Source of the DNA: Haloglycomyces albus DSM 45210
GTDB taxonomy: Bacteria; Actinomycetota; Actinomycetes; Mycobacteriales; Micromonosporaceae
NCBI RefSeq assembly: GCF_000527155.1
Contig: NZ_AZUQ01000001.1
Coordinates: 738,554-802,553 of the forward strand
Direction of reading: 5' to 3'
DNA: 64,000 nt
Positions 1-17,270 of the stretch are shown in pieces. How positions within the stretch are numbered: the stretch's first letter is position 1; each line of letters opens with the position of its first letter. The notes under the pieces were generated by a model. It saw nothing but the letters and a program-made list of their open reading frames with translations. It made no database searches and had not been told where the DNA came from. The position numbers and the translations under genes were made by a program.

Positions 1-3968
<3,968 letters not shown>

Positions 3969-4214: not shown

Positions 4215-4931
4215 TTCACAATACCAGAACCAAAATCAACGATCCCTACCGGGGTCTAAATAATTCCGATACCGAATGGTTCGATCATCAACCGCAACAA
4301 CCAATTTCGACCCCGAACGCAGATCCGAAATATTTAAGACCCGTTCGATCCGGTTTAACCGGTTGTCTCGGCGACAAGAACTAATCTACGGTATCTGTTT
4401 CCCGCCAATAAAAACGGGGTCCGTTGCAGTGACCCAGCACTCCATTTATGCGCTTTCGCTGCACAATTCCACCCCAATTAGCCACGCCCGCACTGTGAAT
4501 CAACCGTTACCAATCCATTTCAACGCTCGTTACCAAGCATCCGTTGAACAAAGAATCAATATGTACCCCGTCGGGAACCGATTCAACGTCGGTACGCGGA
4601 GTACCTCACTAAAATCCGCAACCCGCTTCGATGCATCTTGCCCATAGGGCCACATACGCTTACCACATAGTCAAATCCATCTTCCTTGCCAATACTTGAC
4701 AGAAGGTGAGATGATGTCACATTAAGACCAACGTTTAGTAAAGGCTGCCTCTTGGCGCCAGGCAATGTAATGAAACGAGGGTAAGTCCAGTAAGTTGTGC
4801 ACACCGTCTGGACCTCAGTTAGTGGAGCGGCACATCGCCACAAGGCATAGACACAGCCGCGACCCTTCGAATCTTCTCTTGTAACGTGGTAGATGCCGAC
4901 TGGCAAGGAACGAAAGCCGGGTAAGGAGATA
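4215..4931. other. Upstream region of rrnA, shared with the divergent gene at 4932
   Basis: Similarity to the other rRNA operon stops abruptly at 4214. This 717-base stretch should hold the rrnA promoter(s) on minus and the promoter of the gene at 4932 on plus. It is AT-richer than the coding regions. A weak minus-strand candidate promoter is listed separately. I see no convincing gene here. Confidence 0.5.
4383..4411 (-). promoter_or_regulatory. Weak candidate promoter for rrnA
   Basis: The minus strand has TTATTG (4406-4411), a 17-base spacer and TAGATT (4383-4388). The -10 fits TAnnnT and the spacing is ideal, but the -35 is poor. Other weak pairs exist nearby (for example TTAAAC, 16 bases, TAAATA around 4330-4360), so this assignment is tentative. 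Confidence 0.22.
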
Positions 4932-6029
4932 ATGGATAACATTCCAGAAGCGGAGGGACCAATATCGTCGACGGTTCGCCGCTGGCGTCGCCTCGCTACT
5001 CGCCACAACGTGGAATGGAGCGAGCTAGTCCTCATTGCGCTCAATCTCTACGGCCTGCGTGGAACAAACCCCGAAAGTCTTCGTCTACGCCTACTAGCTG
5101 AAGACGATGAGTACTTGACTGTAGTCCAGGCTAATAAGACAACGTCGCCATTCAGCCTACGGGCCCATGTCAGCCCCACCTCACCCCAACACGGTTTGCG
5201 CGAACTTTGTGTAGATGGCACCACTGTCGCCGAGATTATTGATGTAGAACCTTCGGAGACGGTACGTGGGTATCTTCGTGCTAACGGAACCGCCGCAAAC
5301 CTTAACCCGCCCCAGTCGAACGACTATGATCAAATAGTTCAGCATTATCGACAAACGCTTCGTCTTCTCGCACATGAAGCTCCTGAAAGTGACGGTCCCG
5401 AATACATTAAGGAAGTTGCTTTCAATGCTCATGACGACGCGCACGGCGATATGGATTCAGCCGAGGTTGTACTCCATCTGACCGCGCTGCGTGAAGCAAT
5501 GACGTCAGAGGACGTTCCGAACTCCGCGACTATCAGTGTTCTTACTACGGCGTTTGATTCAGATTCCGACTTCCAAGGGATTCGTCAGAAACTTGGCCCA
5601 CTACTACTTCTTGTCGATGTAGACAATCGCATGACCTCGTATCATAGCGAAATAGATGTGGAAACCGCTCTTCCAGAAGCAGAAACACTTGCGAAGACGC
5701 TAAAAGCCGCGTCAGACGCTAATATAGAAACTTCGTTCACGCTCACAGTCGGACATCAGTCACTTAATGTCATCAAAGACTGGATTCTCCCTCTCGCCGA
5801 ACAAACTACAGTGTGGCCGTCACTAACAATTCATCCCGCAGAGACTGCATCCGATGAATCACAACATGTTGCAGCTCCAGATGAACGACTTGATTTCTTT
5901 CTCGAAGCGAGAAAACTCTTCGAACAAATATTTGCACCAACAGGACTTAAACCAGAACCATGGCGCTGTTACAGAGGCCTCTGGTATCGCCAATTCGCCG
6001 GCGAACCTCTGGAAGGTCCTTACGTTTAG
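4932..6029 (+). CDS. Unknown protein between the rRNA operons; C-terminus resembles radical-SAM-fold proteins but lacks the cluster motif
   Basis: I do not recognise a named family for this 365-residue protein. The chosen ATG at 4932 follows AAGGAGAT closely; an ATG at 4893 in the same frame would add 13 residues but has no clear ribosome site. The last 110 residues (a TLTVGHQSL segment, then DERLDFFLEARKLFEQIF and a terminal EPWRCYRGLWYRQF) remind me of the C-terminal part of some radical SAM enzymes. There is no CX3CX2C motif, and only two cysteines occur in the whole protein. If the resemblance is real, this is a non-catalytic relative. No signal peptide or membrane segment is visible. Base composition is clearly more AT-rich than the genes beyond the rRNA operons, which suggests acquisition. 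It is transcribed away from rrnA and towards the end of rrnB. Confidence 0.7.
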   Translation: MDNIPEAEGPISSTVRRWRRLATRHNVEWSELVLIALNLYGLRGTNPESLRLRLLAEDDEYLTVVQANKTTSPFSLRAHVSPTSPQHGLRELCVDGTTVAEIIDVEPSETVRGYLRANGTAANLNPPQSNDYDQIVQHYRQTLRLLAHEAPESDGPEYIKEVAFNAHDDAHGDMDSAEVVLHLTALREAMTSEDVPNSATISVLTTAFDSDSDFQGIRQKLGPLLLLVDVDNRMTSYHSEIDVETALPEAETLAKTLKAASDANIETSFTLTVGHQSLNVIKDWILPLAEQTTVWPSLTIHPAETASDESQHVAAPDERLDFFLEARKLFEQIFAPTGLKPEPWRCYRGLWYRQFAGEPLEGPYV

Positions 6030-6237: not shown

Positions 6238-6278
6238 AGGAGAAGGGGGAAAAGCCAGTGGCTTCTCCCCCTTCTCCT
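6238..6278 (-). terminator. Intrinsic terminator of rrnB
   Basis: A 19-base stem (6238-6256 with 6260-6278, one mismatch) and a 3-base loop. On the minus strand it is followed by TTTTT (6234-6238). It lies just after the 5S gene, where the rRNA transcript should end. Confidence 0.88.
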
Positions 6279-6300
6279 ATTCACAAATAAAATTAAATTG

Positions 6301-6417
6301 TTTGGCAGCGACCTACTCTCCCACACCCCCACGAGTGCAGTACCATCAGCGCAGAAAGCCTTAACCACCAGGTTCGGAATGGAACTGAGTGTACCCCTCC
6401 CGCACACACCACCAAAC
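6301..6417 (-). rRNA. rrf: 5S rRNA (rrnB)
   Basis: About 117 bases. The plus strand starts tttggcagcgacctactctc, the complement of the standard 5S 3' end, and contains ggttcggaatggaactgagt, the complement of the conserved loop region. It lies about 116 bases after the 23S gene in transcription order. Confidence 0.93.
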
Positions 6418-6533: not shown

Positions 6534-11954
<5,421 letters not shown>

Positions 11955-12634: not shown

Positions 12635-13171
12635 CTAAATCGGTGTCTCTTCCTGAAGAAGCTCAACGATTTCGGTGTACGCCTCATTCGGATCGTCACC
12701 GCAACCGTTGTTCTTTACCGTCGTGTCCCCTACCGTCAGAACATAGATGTCGACGTCGCCGCACATGTCGGTGTCGTCCGGTTCTTTTTCGAGGCCGCCC
12801 CAGTCGGAAAGCTCGGAACGCTGCTCCAGTTCGTCCAGGTCGGAAACGACGTCCGCGTCAAGCTGCCCTGAATCCGTCTCCTGGGTCTTCTTATGTTCAT
12901 ACGACCATTCGCCGTCAATGTCGACGGTTAGCTCGGCCGTGTCGGACGATCCCGTACGGAGCAACCGGACCTCGTGCGAAAGCTCGCCTGAGTCCTGGCC
13001 TTCACCGCCGTCGGCATTGTCGCCGGAGTTCGACTGCGTTTCCTCCGTGGCTGAGTCGTCCTGAGAGCCAGAAGACGACTCGTCATCGGGTCCACAGGCG
13101 GTCAGCGCCAAGCCGGCACTCATCAAACCGGTCAGCAGTATCGCAGGAGTTATTGGTCGAGTTCGTTTCAT
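12635..13171 (-). CDS. Lipoprotein of unknown function
   Basis: A 178-residue protein with a lipoprotein signal: positive N-terminus (MKRTRP), hydrophobic stretch and the lipobox LTAC with Cys26 as the likely lipidated residue. A Ser/Asp/Glu-rich linker follows, then a folded domain of about 120 residues with ELTVDIDGEWSYEHKK near the middle and two later cysteines (MCGDVD, NNGCGD) that may form a disulfide. It should sit on the outer face of the membrane. The exported domain is strongly acidic. It lies downstream of rpmA in the same direction, but a terminator separates them. The function is unknown. Confidence 0.85.
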   Translation of the reverse strand: MKRTRPITPAILLTGLMSAGLALTACGPDDESSSGSQDDSATEETQSNSGDNADGGEGQDSGELSHEVRLLRTGSSDTAELTVDIDGEWSYEHKKTQETDSGQLDADVVSDLDELEQRSELSDWGGLEKEPDDTDMCGDVDIYVLTVGDTTVKNNGCGDDPNEAYTEIVELLQEETPI

Positions 13172-13371: not shown

Positions 13372-13632
13372 TTATGCGTTTTCAGCCGACACGATGTTCA
13401 CGTGCTTGCGGCCACGCTTCATACTGAATTTCACTTCGCCATCGGTAAGAGCAAAGAGAGTGTCATCGTTGCCGCGGCCGACCGAAACACCGGGGTGGTA
13501 TTTGGTACCGCGCTGACGAACGAGGATTTCCCCAGCGTTGACGACTTGACCACCGAAGCGCTTGATTCCCAGGCGCTTGGAGTTTGAATCGCGTCCGTTG
13601 CGGGAGCTGGACGCACCCTTCTTATGTGCCAT
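13372..13632 (-). CDS. rpmA: Ribosomal protein bL27
   Basis: An 86-residue bL27, a large-subunit protein near the peptidyl-transferase centre. The N-terminus [16 protein letters not shown] and the segments [19 protein letters not shown] and [16 protein letters not shown] are textbook features of the family, and the length is normal. It follows rplU with an 11-base gap and is clearly co-transcribed. The gene obgE, which often comes next in actinobacteria, is not present here; a terminator and a lipoprotein gene follow instead. Confidence 0.97.
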
Positions 13633-13643
13633 CAGTCAACCCC

Positions 13644-13943
13644 TTATTTCTTGATTCCGGTGACTTTGACGCGGGTCAACGACTGACGGTGACCTTGGCG
13701 CTTGTGGTAGCCGGTTTTGTTCTTGTACTTGTGAATCTTGATCTTCGGGCCCTTGACGTGCTCAACGAGTTCACCGTTGACCGTGGCGCCGGAGGCGTCG
13801 GTTACGACGGTGGACCCGTCCACGAGCATGACCGCGGGCAGCGTCAGCGAGTCGCCGGGGGTGCCTTCCAGTTTTTCAACCGTAAGAACGTCACCTTCCG
13901 CGACTTTGTACTGCTTGCCGCCGGTTTTGACGATTGCGTACAT
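13644..13943 (-). CDS. rplU: Ribosomal protein bL21
   Basis: A 99-residue bL21. The start at 13943 gives the typical [15 protein letters not shown]-terminus; an in-frame codon 36 bases upstream would add residues not found in the family. The C-terminal [16 protein letters not shown] is the conserved RNA-binding end. First gene of the rplU-rpmA unit, downstream of the RNase E/G gene, the usual order in actinobacteria. Confidence 0.97.
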
Positions 13944-14355
13944 GTCGGTGGTTGTCTCCTTTATTGGTGGCCCTGACAAACGTAATGATCATCAGGGTGT
14001 CTGCCACCCGTTCACAATGAACGGGTATCGCACGTATGCCTATGACGACACACGTTTTGCCTCGTAGATCGCGTGGTACGGAGAGACAGCCCCGTCGCAC
14101 TGCGAGATTGGCACTCTCGATGTTCGAGAACCGCTCCTATGGTTTCGAGCTCCGCCGTCGCCCGGCACGGCTCGCTACAGAGCGGTGAGGCCACTCTAAA
14201 GACTACAGCGTCTGTGGCTGATTGACGAAATACGGACGGGAGGCACGACGCCGAAATCACATTCGCGCTTACAGCGCTCTCGGCGTTCCCGGGAACGCCG
14301 AGGGGGCTCGGGCAGCAAACCGCCCGAGCCCCCTCACGAACCGTCAGTCGGTCTT
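13944..14355 (-). other. Spacer between the RNase E/G gene and rplU
   Basis: About 410 bases with no gene. The RNase E/G side has the paired hairpins at 14279-14334; the rest should contain the promoter and 5' untranslated region of rplU. Confidence 0.5.
14279..14334 (-). terminator. Double hairpin after the RNase E/G gene
   Basis: Two adjacent hairpins: a perfect 24-base palindrome (14279-14302), then a GC-rich stem pairing 14301-14313 with 14322-14334. They share two bases, so they could form alternatively. There is no U-run, so this is a terminator-like or RNA-stabilising structure rather than a classical terminator. Confidence 0.6.
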
Positions 14356-16467
14356 TCAGGTATTGGCCTTCGTGTCACCGGACTCGGTGTCGGACTGCTT
14401 AGCTTGATCCGAACCGGCCTTTCCCGACGCTTGCTTGTTCGCGTTACCGTCTCCGTCGGACGATTTCTTTTTCTTCTTCTTTTTCTTCTTGCTCCCGTTC
14501 GACGAAGTCGACTCGGGATTCAAGATCTGGTCGGTGTGAATCTGAAGGCCGCGACCTTTACAGCAGTCACACGTCTCAGAGAACGCCTCGACCAGGCCCT
14601 GCCCAACGCGTTTACGCGTCATCTGCACCAACCCAAGTGACGTTATCTCAGTTACCTGGTGTTTGGTACGGTCCCTTCCCAGGCTTTCCGTCAAGCGACG
14701 GAGTACCAGTTCACGGTTGTTCTCCAGGACCATATCGATAAAGTCGATGACGATGATTCCACCGATGTCGCGGAGGCGCAATTGCCGCACGATCTCCTCG
14801 GCGGCTTCGAGGTTATTACGCGTCACCGTCTCTTCGAGGTTTCCGCCTTCACCGGTAAACCGACCGGTGTTCACGTCGATGACCGTCATCGCCTCAGTGC
14901 GGTCGATGACCAGCGAACCCCCGGACGGTAGATAGACCTTGCGGTCGAGGGCCTTGATCAACTGTTCATCGATGCGCCGGTCCGCGAAAATGTCCTTGGC
15001 CCCGGTGTGCCGCTTCAAGCGTGGCAACAGCTCCGGTGAGACCGCCTCAAGGTAACCGTAGATCTCATCGTAGAGGTCGTTGCCCTCTACCAACAGTTCC
15101 TTGAAGTCCTCGTTGAACATATCGCGAACGACCCGAATGATGACGTCCGGTTCACTGTGCAGCAGCGCCGGAGCGTTGCCCTTCTTCGACTTCTCCTGGA
15201 TCTCTTCCCATTCGATCTGGAGTCGTGAGATATCGCGGGCCAAATCCTCCGGACCGGTGCCTTCGGCGGCCGTCCGAACGATAACGCCCGATCCCTCCGG
15301 AACCAGCTTTTTCAACGCACTGCGCAGCCTGGTCCTCTCCCGGTCCGGCAGTTTTCGACTGATCCCTGAAGCGTTGCCGTTCGGAACATAGACGAGGTGC
15401 CGACCGGATAGGGCGATATGGCTGGTAAGACGCGCGCCTTTGTGGCCGATGGGGTCTTTGGTCACCTGAACGACCACGGTATCGCCTGGTTTCAATGCCT
15501 GCTCGATCGAACGGGACTTCCCGGAGAGACCAGTGGCATCCCAGTTGACCTCACCCGCATAGATGACGGCATTGCGGCCGCGACCGATGTCAACGAAGGC
15601 CGCTTCCATACTGGGGAGCACGTTTTGCACTTTCCCCAGGTAGACATTGCCGATGAGGCCTTGACTGTTCGTGGTGGACACATAGTGTTCCACCAGAATA
15701 TTGTCCTCCAAGACGGCTGCCTGGCTGCGGGTGCTTCCCGATCGCACGATAAGTTCACGGGTCACCGATTCGCGCCTGGCGAGGAACTCGGCTTCGCTGA
15801 CAATGTGCATGCGATTCTTGCCGTTACGACGACCCTCGCGCCGACGTTGCCGCTTAGCCTCCAGGCGGGTAGAACCGCTTACGCCTTGCACGACGTCCGC
15901 ATCGGACTGTTTGGGCGTTTTACGTACCTTTACGACGACTTCGCCGTTGTCCTTACCGGACTTATCGCTCTTGGTCGACCGGTCCGACTCGACGGCCCCG
16001 GCCCGGGTACGCCTCCGACGCCGACGACGGGTGACTTCTGCGGTGGACTTGTTCGAATCAGAGTCTTTTTCCTGCTGAGCAGAGGTTTCGTCTCCACCGG
16101 CACCGTCTCCGTTGTCGCTTCCCTTTCCACGACCGCGTCCACGACGCCCGCGTCGTCCCCGACGCCTAGGACGATCCTCGTCATCCGCTTCGATATCGGC
16201 CGAGTCGTCGTCTTTTTCGGACTCGTCGGCGACTGCGCCCTTGTCCTTACGACGGTCGTCGCGGGAATCGGACGGCGACTCCGACTTCGGTTTGGGCTCG
16301 ATTTTGGGGGGCGGTGCGAACAGCGAATCGGACATCGGTACGGCCTTACCCGCCGGCTCCTGTTTCACCGGTTTGGACTCGGGCTCGGGGTCCGATTTGC
16401 TGCCTTGTGGCGCGATGAAGCTGACCGAAATAGGCGGTCTTTTATCGCGCGGTTCGTCCTCGCGCAT
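14356..16467 (-). CDS. rne: Ribonuclease E/G family endoribonuclease
   Basis: A 703-residue single-strand RNA endonuclease of rRNA processing and mRNA decay. The ATG at 16467 is preferred because GGAGAG lies 8 bases upstream; a TTG at 16608 would add 47 residues. The N-terminal 220 residues are disordered, first acidic, then Arg-rich (RRRGRRGRRGRGRGKG). An S1-like domain begins near residue 250 (GLIGNVYLGKVQNVLPSMEA). The catalytic domain includes TVIDVNTGRFTGEG near 530 and IIVIDFIDM near 570, supplying the two metal-binding aspartates. CDCCKGRG near 632 is the zinc-link motif. A nine-lysine run follows near the C-terminus. Its presence beside the rRNA operons and rplU-rpmA is in keeping with its role, but the order rne-rplU-rpmA is common in the phylum. 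Confidence 0.95.
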   Translation of the reverse strand: MREDEPRDKRPPISVSFIAPQGSKSDPEPESKPVKQEPAGKAVPMSDSLFAPPPKIEPKPKSESPSDSRDDRRKDKGAVADESEKDDDSADIEADDEDRPRRRGRRGRRGRGRGKGSDNGDGAGGDETSAQQEKDSDSNKSTAEVTRRRRRRRTRAGAVESDRSTKSDKSGKDNGEVVVKVRKTPKQSDADVVQGVSGSTRLEAKRQRRREGRRNGKNRMHIVSEAEFLARRESVTRELIVRSGSTRSQAAVLEDNILVEHYVSTTNSQGLIGNVYLGKVQNVLPSMEAAFVDIGRGRNAVIYAGEVNWDATGLSGKSRSIEQALKPGDTVVVQVTKDPIGHKGARLTSHIALSGRHLVYVPNGNASGISRKLPDRERTRLRSALKKLVPEGSGVIVRTAAEGTGPEDLARDISRLQIEWEEIQEKSKKGNAPALLHSEPDVIIRVVRDMFNEDFKELLVEGNDLYDEIYGYLEAVSPELLPRLKRHTGAKDIFADRRIDEQLIKALDRKVYLPSGGSLVIDRTEAMTVIDVNTGRFTGEGGNLEETVTRNNLEAAEEIVRQLRLRDIGGIIVIDFIDMVLENNRELVLRRLTESLGRDRTKHQVTEITSLGLVQMTRKRVGQGLVEAFSETCDCCKGRGLQIHTDQILNPESTSSNGSKKKKKKKKKSSDGDGNANKQASGKAGSDQAKQSDTESGDTKANT

Positions 16468-17270
16468 CTGAATACTCTCTCCATTCCAGCCGAGTCCCGG
16501 GCGCGAGTGTTCTGGTGCTCGCAGCCGCACAGGTCGGCGCTCAGACGGGGATCTGCGATCCCGCCGTCTTGTTAAAGCTTTCGATTCGAACCTTGTCGGC
16601 TCCACCAATGATGCCGCCTTAACGACTCATCGGTGTGTCGTTTGTCAGGTCCACCGTTCCCATTGGGAAACCATCGCTCAACATCGGTCGAAGGGTGTGG
16701 TGGCTGCTGCACAGCCGCTGCGCTTCGAAAGCGGTGGCATCGGCGGACCGGTCTCCCCGATCCGTCGTCCCACCGGTTGAGGCTGAGAGCTTCGGATTCG
16801 CCGCATATCACCCCTTCTAGGCGATAGTGCGGTACACTGCCGACGCTCTCTTCGGGCATGGATGTGACCACCGGAGCTACCAGCGCAACACCGTTTAGTC
16901 CCATCCAGTGCTCGATACGACATTCTTAAGTATCGCACACATACGCTGATCTGCCGACTTCGCGAGGTTTTCAGAGGGAGTCAACACTTTGGTAAACGAC
17001 ACCAGTGCGACAATATCCGAGTATTTGACCTGCGCGTTCACCCGAACCACAGTCCGTTGTTACCACCTTGGAGTGGATTATGTCTCCGGCTCGCTCACCG
17101 GCCTCGTCTCTCTGCCTGAGGGTTGCCTCGCATGGTATTGACGTAGCAGAGTATTGTGTCTGGACTTCGGTAATTGCCGAAATCAGCCGGACTCGTAACC
17201 GCGATATTCCGATATAAACGATGACAATCGTGTTGTCAGGCGACATGAGCGTCGTTAAAGAGCGATTAGT
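16468..17270. other. Divergent intergenic region upstream of the RNase E/G gene
   Basis: About 800 bases between two divergent genes. Short open frames on both strands look like chance. The region probably holds the promoter and long 5' untranslated region of the RNase gene. Long leaders of RNase E genes elsewhere carry autoregulatory structure, but I could not identify one here. Confidence 0.4.

Follow-up and report, generated by a model that had tools for sequence, protein, structure and literature searches.

A probable radical SAM pseudoenzyme lacking the cluster loop in Haloglycomyces albus and other sampled Glycomycetaceae

Introduction

The radical SAM proteins lipoyl synthase, biotin synthase, RlmN and viperin carry a CX3CX2C motif and a [4Fe-4S] cluster. 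Elp3 is another protein with a radical SAM domain; for some lineages it is disputed whether that domain carries out radical chemistry, and Elp3 is a possible case of such a domain being kept for non-radical reasons. As a rule it retains the cluster cysteines, and it also contains a KAT domain. Among kinases and other folds, pseudoenzymes are familiar. In the open PMC literature, no named radical SAM pseudoenzyme was found in the titles and abstract openings of the matches listed, and a search for inactive or non-catalytic radical SAM proteins gave no match.

The protein considered here is encoded in a 64,000-nucleotide stretch of DNA from Haloglycomyces albus DSM 45210 (the window), which is part of a 3.54-Mb single-contig genome with five 16S genes. 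Very probably it is related to the radical SAM proteins but carries no cluster. Lipoyl synthase, biotin synthase, RlmN and viperin are the best structural matches of its predicted model, with an identity of 6–13% in the VIA-align alignments. Elp3 is found among the matches of a model built for a cysteine-bearing relative, and the window protein differs from it in the missing cluster loop and in that no second domain was recognised. A family in which every member lacks the loop, together with relatives that keep the cysteines, offers a way to study which role is left to a radical SAM scaffold once its cluster is gone.

The gene and its surroundings

The features of the gene are the following.

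4932..6029, + strand: coding sequence, 365 aa, putative radical-SAM-fold pseudoenzyme (ORF, homologues, tree, model, alignment; an alternative longer ORF starts at 4893)
4923..4928, + strand: AAGGAG, possible ribosome-binding site ahead of ATG 4932 (from the sequence; function putative)
5304..5324, + strand: codons 125–131, short loop between the first barrel strand (121–124) and helix 132–149 (DSSP of both models; alignment)
5961..5990, + strand: codons 344–353, WRCYRGLWYR, C-terminal signature common to the cysteine-bearing relatives (alignment)

The frame is open throughout from 4893 to 6029 (+ strand). The start at 4932 is preferred over 4893 because the N-termini of the Glycomyces proteins align there and AAGGAG lies just ahead, with a rather short spacer of 3 nt. 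The protein contains two cysteines only, residues 93 and 346. It has no Pfam match above the cut-off, PF04055 (Radical_SAM) included, and no NCBIfam match. The initial annotation had called the gene an orphan, which holds for these curated libraries and fails otherwise, as numerous relatives were found. The DUF4129 match (E 0.0099, below the cut-off) and the calmodulin matches (E 0.03 and up) were regarded as chance. Against solved structures, profile searches returned three and four weak matches at E 0.25 or worse, mostly cytochrome subunits around a GC-x-x-C stretch, which were rejected as noise.

The surrounding features of the window are listed below.

1..1693, − strand: 23S rRNA of operon B, cut by the window edge (rRNA search)
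2434..3968, − strand: 16S rRNA of operon B, divergent from the gene (rRNA search)
6238..6278, − strand: hairpin of 19 pairs with a T-run, likely terminator of operon A, between the gene and 5S (consensus scan)
6300..6416, − strand: 5S rRNA of operon A, convergent with the gene (rRNA search)
6534..9670, − strand: 23S rRNA of operon A (rRNA search)
10420..11954, − strand: 16S rRNA of operon A (rRNA search)
13372..16608, − strand: genes which we take from their sequences to be rpmA (13372–13632) and rplU (13644–13979), and an RNase E/G gene (14356–16608; by search)

The gene is thus flanked by two parallel rRNA operons that form long direct repeats at a spacing of 7977/7986 nt, just as had been described for this site. 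Since the gene and operon A are convergent and a likely terminator separates them, co-transcription of the gene with rRNA is unlikely. The terminator scan returned three sites against 2.7 expected by chance, and that at 6238–6278 is the richest of them in G-C pairs and closely follows 5S. Between rpmA and operon A, a short ORF (12635–13171, − strand) looks lipoprotein-like by eye and has no Pfam match; in the genome G013, which carries an orthologue of the gene, the interval from rpmA to the orthologue showed no evident ORF of this kind.

Relatives with the cluster cysteines

The search of 61 genomes (the own genome and relatives) gave a match in seven. A tblastn search against plasmids returned eight records, two of which are annotated as 'radical SAM protein', and no relative is encoded in the phage records at E 1e-5. 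Scanning the genome collection with the window protein alone found no relative, and a profile scan of the genome contigs with the alignment A2 identified 71 loci. At the level of the family-wide search, 44 of the 354 genomes were positive, including the own genome.

Distant relatives carry a CX2CX2C motif (e.g., RSRCVGCAFCPNTLE) exactly at the alignment gap of the window protein. Full-length relatives have this motif and also keep the C-terminus, for example as RPxAWECYRPLWYFxFAGE. The window protein is homologous over its full length to these proteins, for example in the alignment with the locus L043 (29% identity over query residues 9–377, E 4e-36, where the E-value is relative to the candidate stretches only). 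Pfam Radical_SAM (PF04055) matches 12 of the 34 alignment members at E ≤ 0.1, weakly, with a best E of 1.7e-5. The resemblance of the C-terminal third to the C-termini of radical SAM enzymes, first noticed by eye, is therefore upheld by full-length relatives that keep it, some of them annotated as 'radical SAM protein' and some matching Pfam Radical_SAM.

These relatives form a mostly actinobacterial CxGCxFC radical SAM family, with examples in Nocardia farcinica (REK76_RS29245) and Streptomyces sp. NBC_01216 (OG393_RS33630), both annotated as 'radical SAM protein'. Its genes usually stand at the head of an operon with enolase-, HAD-, phosphoketolase- and methyltransferase-type genes. The window protein and the CxGCxFC family have in common the N-terminal SPF and GYxR, the C-terminal TSFTY...VG...YRxLWY and the kind of predicted fold. 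They differ in the CX2CX2C loop, the TGCF stretch, ECFTRRxxLKxSKA and the operon, all of which are present in the CxGCxFC family and missing for the window protein.

Loss of the cluster loop

Among the 71 loci, CX2CX2C occurs in none of the 25 Glycomycetaceae loci, which include L036, a MAG grouping with the family though not named so, and in 42 of the 46 others; the remaining four are short readings of 112–195 aa. The cysteine motif and its loop are absent from the window protein and from all 28 Glycomycetaceae rows of the tree. The initial annotation had noted the lack of cluster cysteines correctly and had expected CX3CX2C, which differs from the CX2CX2C of the relatives.

In the 72-row tree with a midpoint root, the 28 Glycomycetaceae rows (the window, Glycomyces, Stackebrandtia and G013) form one clade with a support of 100/100. 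Six of the 71 loci (L064, L075, L082, L083, L086, L087) were left out of the tree as partial, frameshifted or fused readings. The branch of the window row is long (0.68), and the tree program cautions that long branches meet, including at the fork of the cysteine-less clade with its neighbours. On this tree, the motif requires two changes, which are read as one on the stem of the Glycomycetaceae and one at the tip of the genome G034. In the radical SAM protein of G034 the motif is shortened to CPGCGC, which looks like a second loss, independent of the first.

The changes extend beyond the loop itself. In the 40 cysteine-bearing rows (a set that excludes three distant rows and G034), 102 columns are conserved at 90% or above. 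The 28 cysteine-less rows keep the same residue at 90% or above in 37 of these columns and do not in 65, which include the loop, the TGCF stretch and most of ECFTRR..LK.SKA. Another 76 columns are conserved at 95% in the cysteine-less clade and below 90% in the cysteine-bearing rows. The identity between the window protein and two Glycomyces proteins is 0.71 in the N part and 0.72–0.73 in the C-terminal third, and falls to 0.35–0.36 in the middle of the barrel.

The possibility of an auxiliary cluster, or of a relocated one, was rejected, as the 28 members have one to three cysteines in total. The catalytic residues are lost in the Glycomycetaceae and kept by their relatives, which is the pattern by which a pseudoenzyme is recognised. 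The proposal of a catalytically dead relative fits these sequences, since no member of the Glycomycetaceae clade retains the cluster loop. A protein that has neither the cysteine triad nor the loop, and whose adjacent motifs have decayed, is very unlikely to carry out radical SAM chemistry.

Predicted fold

The AlphaFold model of the window protein, built from an alignment of 46 rows, has a pLDDT of 87.4 and a pTM of 0.86. The alignments used for structure prediction (A3 with 46 rows and A4 with 34 rows) were picked by hand from the loci and cover a part of them. In the Foldseek search, the top match of the window model is the lipoyl synthase of M. tuberculosis (E 4.5e-5), and 20 of the 25 matches at E ≤ 0.001 are other barrels or unrelated entries rather than radical SAM proteins. 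VIA-align places radical SAM entries at ranks 1–14, the best with Z 10.7, an rmsd of 3.8 and 214 aligned residues. The first other TIM barrel follows at rank 15 with Z 9.1, level with rank 14, so that the lead is small. The predicted fold is thus consistent with the partial TIM barrel of radical SAM proteins, as had been proposed from the sequence, and no unrelated fold was predicted. Because generic TIM barrels come close behind, the fold by itself is no proof of descent; that proof comes from the sequence link.

The model of the cysteine-bearing relative gives a clearer result. The best 50 matches listed by VIA-align all belong to radical SAM proteins, as classed by the entry titles and by what is known of the named proteins, and the top one has Z 14.2, an rmsd of 3.7 and 242 aligned residues. 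In this model, CX2CX2C lies in a loop after the strand 92–95 (about residues 96–123) that is partly predicted at low confidence. The matching loop of the window model (125–131) is far shorter.

Position relative to rRNA operons

The initial annotation had asked whether homologues also sit at rRNA operons. This is so in the genus Glycomyces, where 5S rRNA faces the gene in 15 of the 21 named loci, 118–1800 nt beyond the stop codon, being cut by the contig end in three of them (L025, L028, L034). One more locus (L022) shows only a 37-nt match to 23S rRNA at the contig end, and in L020, L026, L029, L031 and L038 the contigs end 30–738 nt after the stop codon with no 5S before the end. It does not extend to the related lineages: within the stretches examined, there is no rRNA near the orthologue in any of the five Stackebrandtia loci (L039–L041, L119, L120) or in G013. 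The MAG L036 likewise has no rRNA within 4459 nt downstream.

In G013, the RNase E/G, rplU and rpmA genes are directly convergent with the orthologue and no rRNA lies between them, whereas in the window the same genes are found beyond operon A. The comparison implies that an rRNA operon was inserted at, or lost from, the junction between the gene and RNase E/G. The G013 genome has three 16S genes. Given the absence of rRNA near the five Stackebrandtia loci and G013, the link of the gene to rRNA is best read as positional.

Retention, selection and base composition

The gene is present as a single copy without internal stops in all 22 genomes of the Glycomyces-like genus of G011 and in all five genomes of the genus of G004, which is called Stackebrandtia-like from its position in the tree. 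The family comprises six genera at NCBI, and Salilacibacter and Salininema were not recognised among the genomes. The window copy has no internal stops either. The easy gain or loss by recombination between rRNA repeats, suggested earlier from the position of the gene, is not seen among these 22 and five genomes. Pairwise dN/dS was computed among 18 sequences; it ranges from 0.077 to 0.201 in the 25 closest pairs, which are all from Glycomyces, and in these pairs the gene is retained by purifying selection. The long branch of the window row and the AT-shifted third positions of its gene leave some room for relaxed constraint in the window genome.

Base composition sets the gene apart from its surroundings, as was noted at the outset. 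It has a GC of 0.507 and a GC3 of 0.438, against 0.589–0.645 and 0.653–0.812 in nine other genes of the window, which as a whole has a GC of 60.1%; a passage in PMC8289206 gives 60.4% for the Haloglycomyces albus genome. A codon-position structure is visible in the copy of the window, with a GC1 of 0.652 against a GC3 of 0.438. The orthologues have a GC3 of 0.89 (Glycomyces, L026), 0.84 (G004) and 0.75 (G013), and the shift is specific to the window genome among the four orthologues compared. A foreign, horizontal origin was rejected: the low GC is no evidence for it, since L026 has a GC3 of 0.89 and the window row nests among the Glycomycetaceae. The low GC3, in a gene with apparently vertical inheritance, is a local composition shift.

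Operon and Prim-Pol neighbours of the relatives

Among the 46 loci outside the Glycomycetaceae, 37 have both an enolase-like and a phosphoketolase-like gene. The other nine include two with the enolase-like gene only, one (Treponema) with the phosphoketolase-like gene only, and six with neither, of which L068, L082, L086 and L087 are short contigs, L085 represents a remote lineage and L066 breaks off shortly downstream. None of 18 operon query proteins was found in the 25 Glycomycetaceae loci, where several Glycomyces contigs end soon after the gene and the absence of a downstream operon is judged from the 5S gene or from little sequence. The 18 queries were also absent from the whole window and from the stretches of G013, G004 and G374.

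The phosphoketolase-like protein, the only operon partner sought genome-wide, has matches of about 35–37% elsewhere in six of eight genomes (G000, G011, G004, G374, G034, G040). In G035 there are two, of 55% (in the operon) and 36%, and in the G013 genome there is none. The weaker matches are probably ordinary phosphoketolases.

A different setting is found for a group of cysteine-bearing relatives outside the operon. A Prim-Pol gene lies close downstream on the same strand in all four loci of this kind examined (L148, 8432–10386; L149, 8428–10708; L150, 8457–10818; L178, 7976–10340), which come from three genomes. It adjoins the radical SAM gene in L148 and lies within about 0.5 kb of it in L149, L150 and L178. 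The genome G040 has two similar copies of the segment, each with FtsK/SpoIIIE and GntR genes nearby, as in actinobacterial integrative elements. The copies of G040 and G034 are the nearest rows outside the cysteine-less clade, at a fork that is open, and like the window gene they stand outside the operon. They differ from it in the triad: both copies of G040, and the copy examined in G378, keep the three cysteines and G034 has CPGCGC, while the window protein lacks the triad. The G378 copy, from a genome outside the tree sample, is 70% identical to a G040 copy. A second, broken copy is present in G378 on the contig C15. No Prim-Pol, FtsK or GntR neighbours were found in the window or in the 28 Glycomycetaceae stretches. 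The setting of these relatives suggests a mobile origin of the gene.

Interpretation

On balance, it is probable that the gene encodes a family-wide radical SAM pseudoenzyme, which may now work by binding. The protein is a member of a mostly actinobacterial CX2CX2C family predicted to share the radical SAM fold. The stem lineage of the sampled Glycomycetaceae lost the loop that joins strand 1 of the barrel to helix 1, and the three cluster cysteines went with it. Conserved segments that follow strands 2 and 4 decayed, while the N-terminal part and the C-terminal third were preserved, and the gene now stands outside the biosynthetic operon of its relatives, single-copy and under purifying selection. 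The window protein could presumably neither bind a [4Fe-4S] cluster nor cleave SAM. The mouth of the barrel and the C-terminal W-x-C-Y-R-G-L-W-Y region may instead hold a small ligand or a protein partner, and the protein might serve as a sensor, regulator or scaffold through its conserved N and C parts. Such a binding or regulatory role is plausible and is put forward tentatively. The history may have led from an operon enzyme through a stand-alone, cysteine-bearing copy linked to Prim-Pol, placed on a mobile-looking element in one genome, to the family-wide gene without the cluster. Retention in every sampled genome of the two genera suggests a new, non-radical job.

The main rival is a repurposed enzyme, in which the cluster-less barrel would catalyse non-radical chemistry with retained polar residues such as R116, E176, R187, R327, E331, Y347 and R348. 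TIM-like barrels commonly host other chemistry, and many TIM-barrel enzymes stand among the Foldseek and VIA-align matches. The 37 columns conserved in both clades, the 76 conserved mainly in the cysteine-less one, and the purifying selection would all suit an enzyme. The middle of the barrel is, however, the least conserved part, which is unexpected for a new catalytic centre, and the neighbourhoods examined suggest no pathway, so that this reading is unlikely. It is less likely still that the protein acts as a partner in making rRNA or ribosomes and stays beside rRNA operons for that reason, for instance as an RNA-binding protein related to the radical SAM modifiers of rRNA and tRNA. The convergent 5S in most named Glycomyces loci and the window, the 23S match in one more, and RlmN among the structural neighbours speak for it, but RlmN is one of many radical SAM matches, the gene is read towards operon A with a likely terminator between, and no rRNA accompanies the gene in the five Stackebrandtia loci examined, in G013 or in the downstream stretch of L036.

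Two further readings carry very little weight. A decaying relic, that is, a pseudogene in progress without function, would explain the lost catalytic motifs along with the long branch and low GC3 of the window genome. Such a relic would hardly be free of internal stops in all 27 genomes and in the window copy, show a dN/dS of about 0.1 in Glycomyces, or preserve the codon-position structure of the window copy, and this reading is strongly disfavoured. An unrelated TIM-barrel protein, whose radical SAM resemblance would be convergent or noise, is the least credible of all: the near-tie with generic TIM barrels and the lack of a curated family match are set against full-length homology to CX2CX2C proteins and a cysteine-bearing model whose best 50 listed matches are radical SAM only.

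For the family-wide, binding pseudoenzyme, a bolder and rather doubtful extension can be formulated. In the Glycomycetaceae, and perhaps in all Glycomycetales, a radical SAM enzyme that a mobile element may have brought in might have become a core protein that is universal, single-copy and non-redox and whose binding or regulatory role is essential or nearly so; its place at the end of an rRNA operon could link it to ribosome production. If this were true, the family would be a clean natural experiment in losing radical SAM chemistry and reusing the scaffold.

The cysteine-bearing operon family

The finding also points to the family of cysteine-bearing operons, of which no description was found in the open PMC literature. 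A conserved, mostly actinobacterial operon is present in 37 loci of L043–L084 and in the annotated plasmid stretches L012 and L014–L017, where the cysteine-bearing radical SAM gene is followed by enolase/mandelate-racemase-like, HAD, phosphoketolase-like and methyltransferase genes. It often also contains phytanoyl-CoA dioxygenase, creatininase and Sua5-like genes, and it resembles a natural-product pathway. The spirochaete Treponema lecithinolyticum (L088, 9944–10993) encodes a relative of the cysteine-bearing radical SAM protein next to a phosphoketolase-like gene (28% identity), a hint of an ancient operon association.
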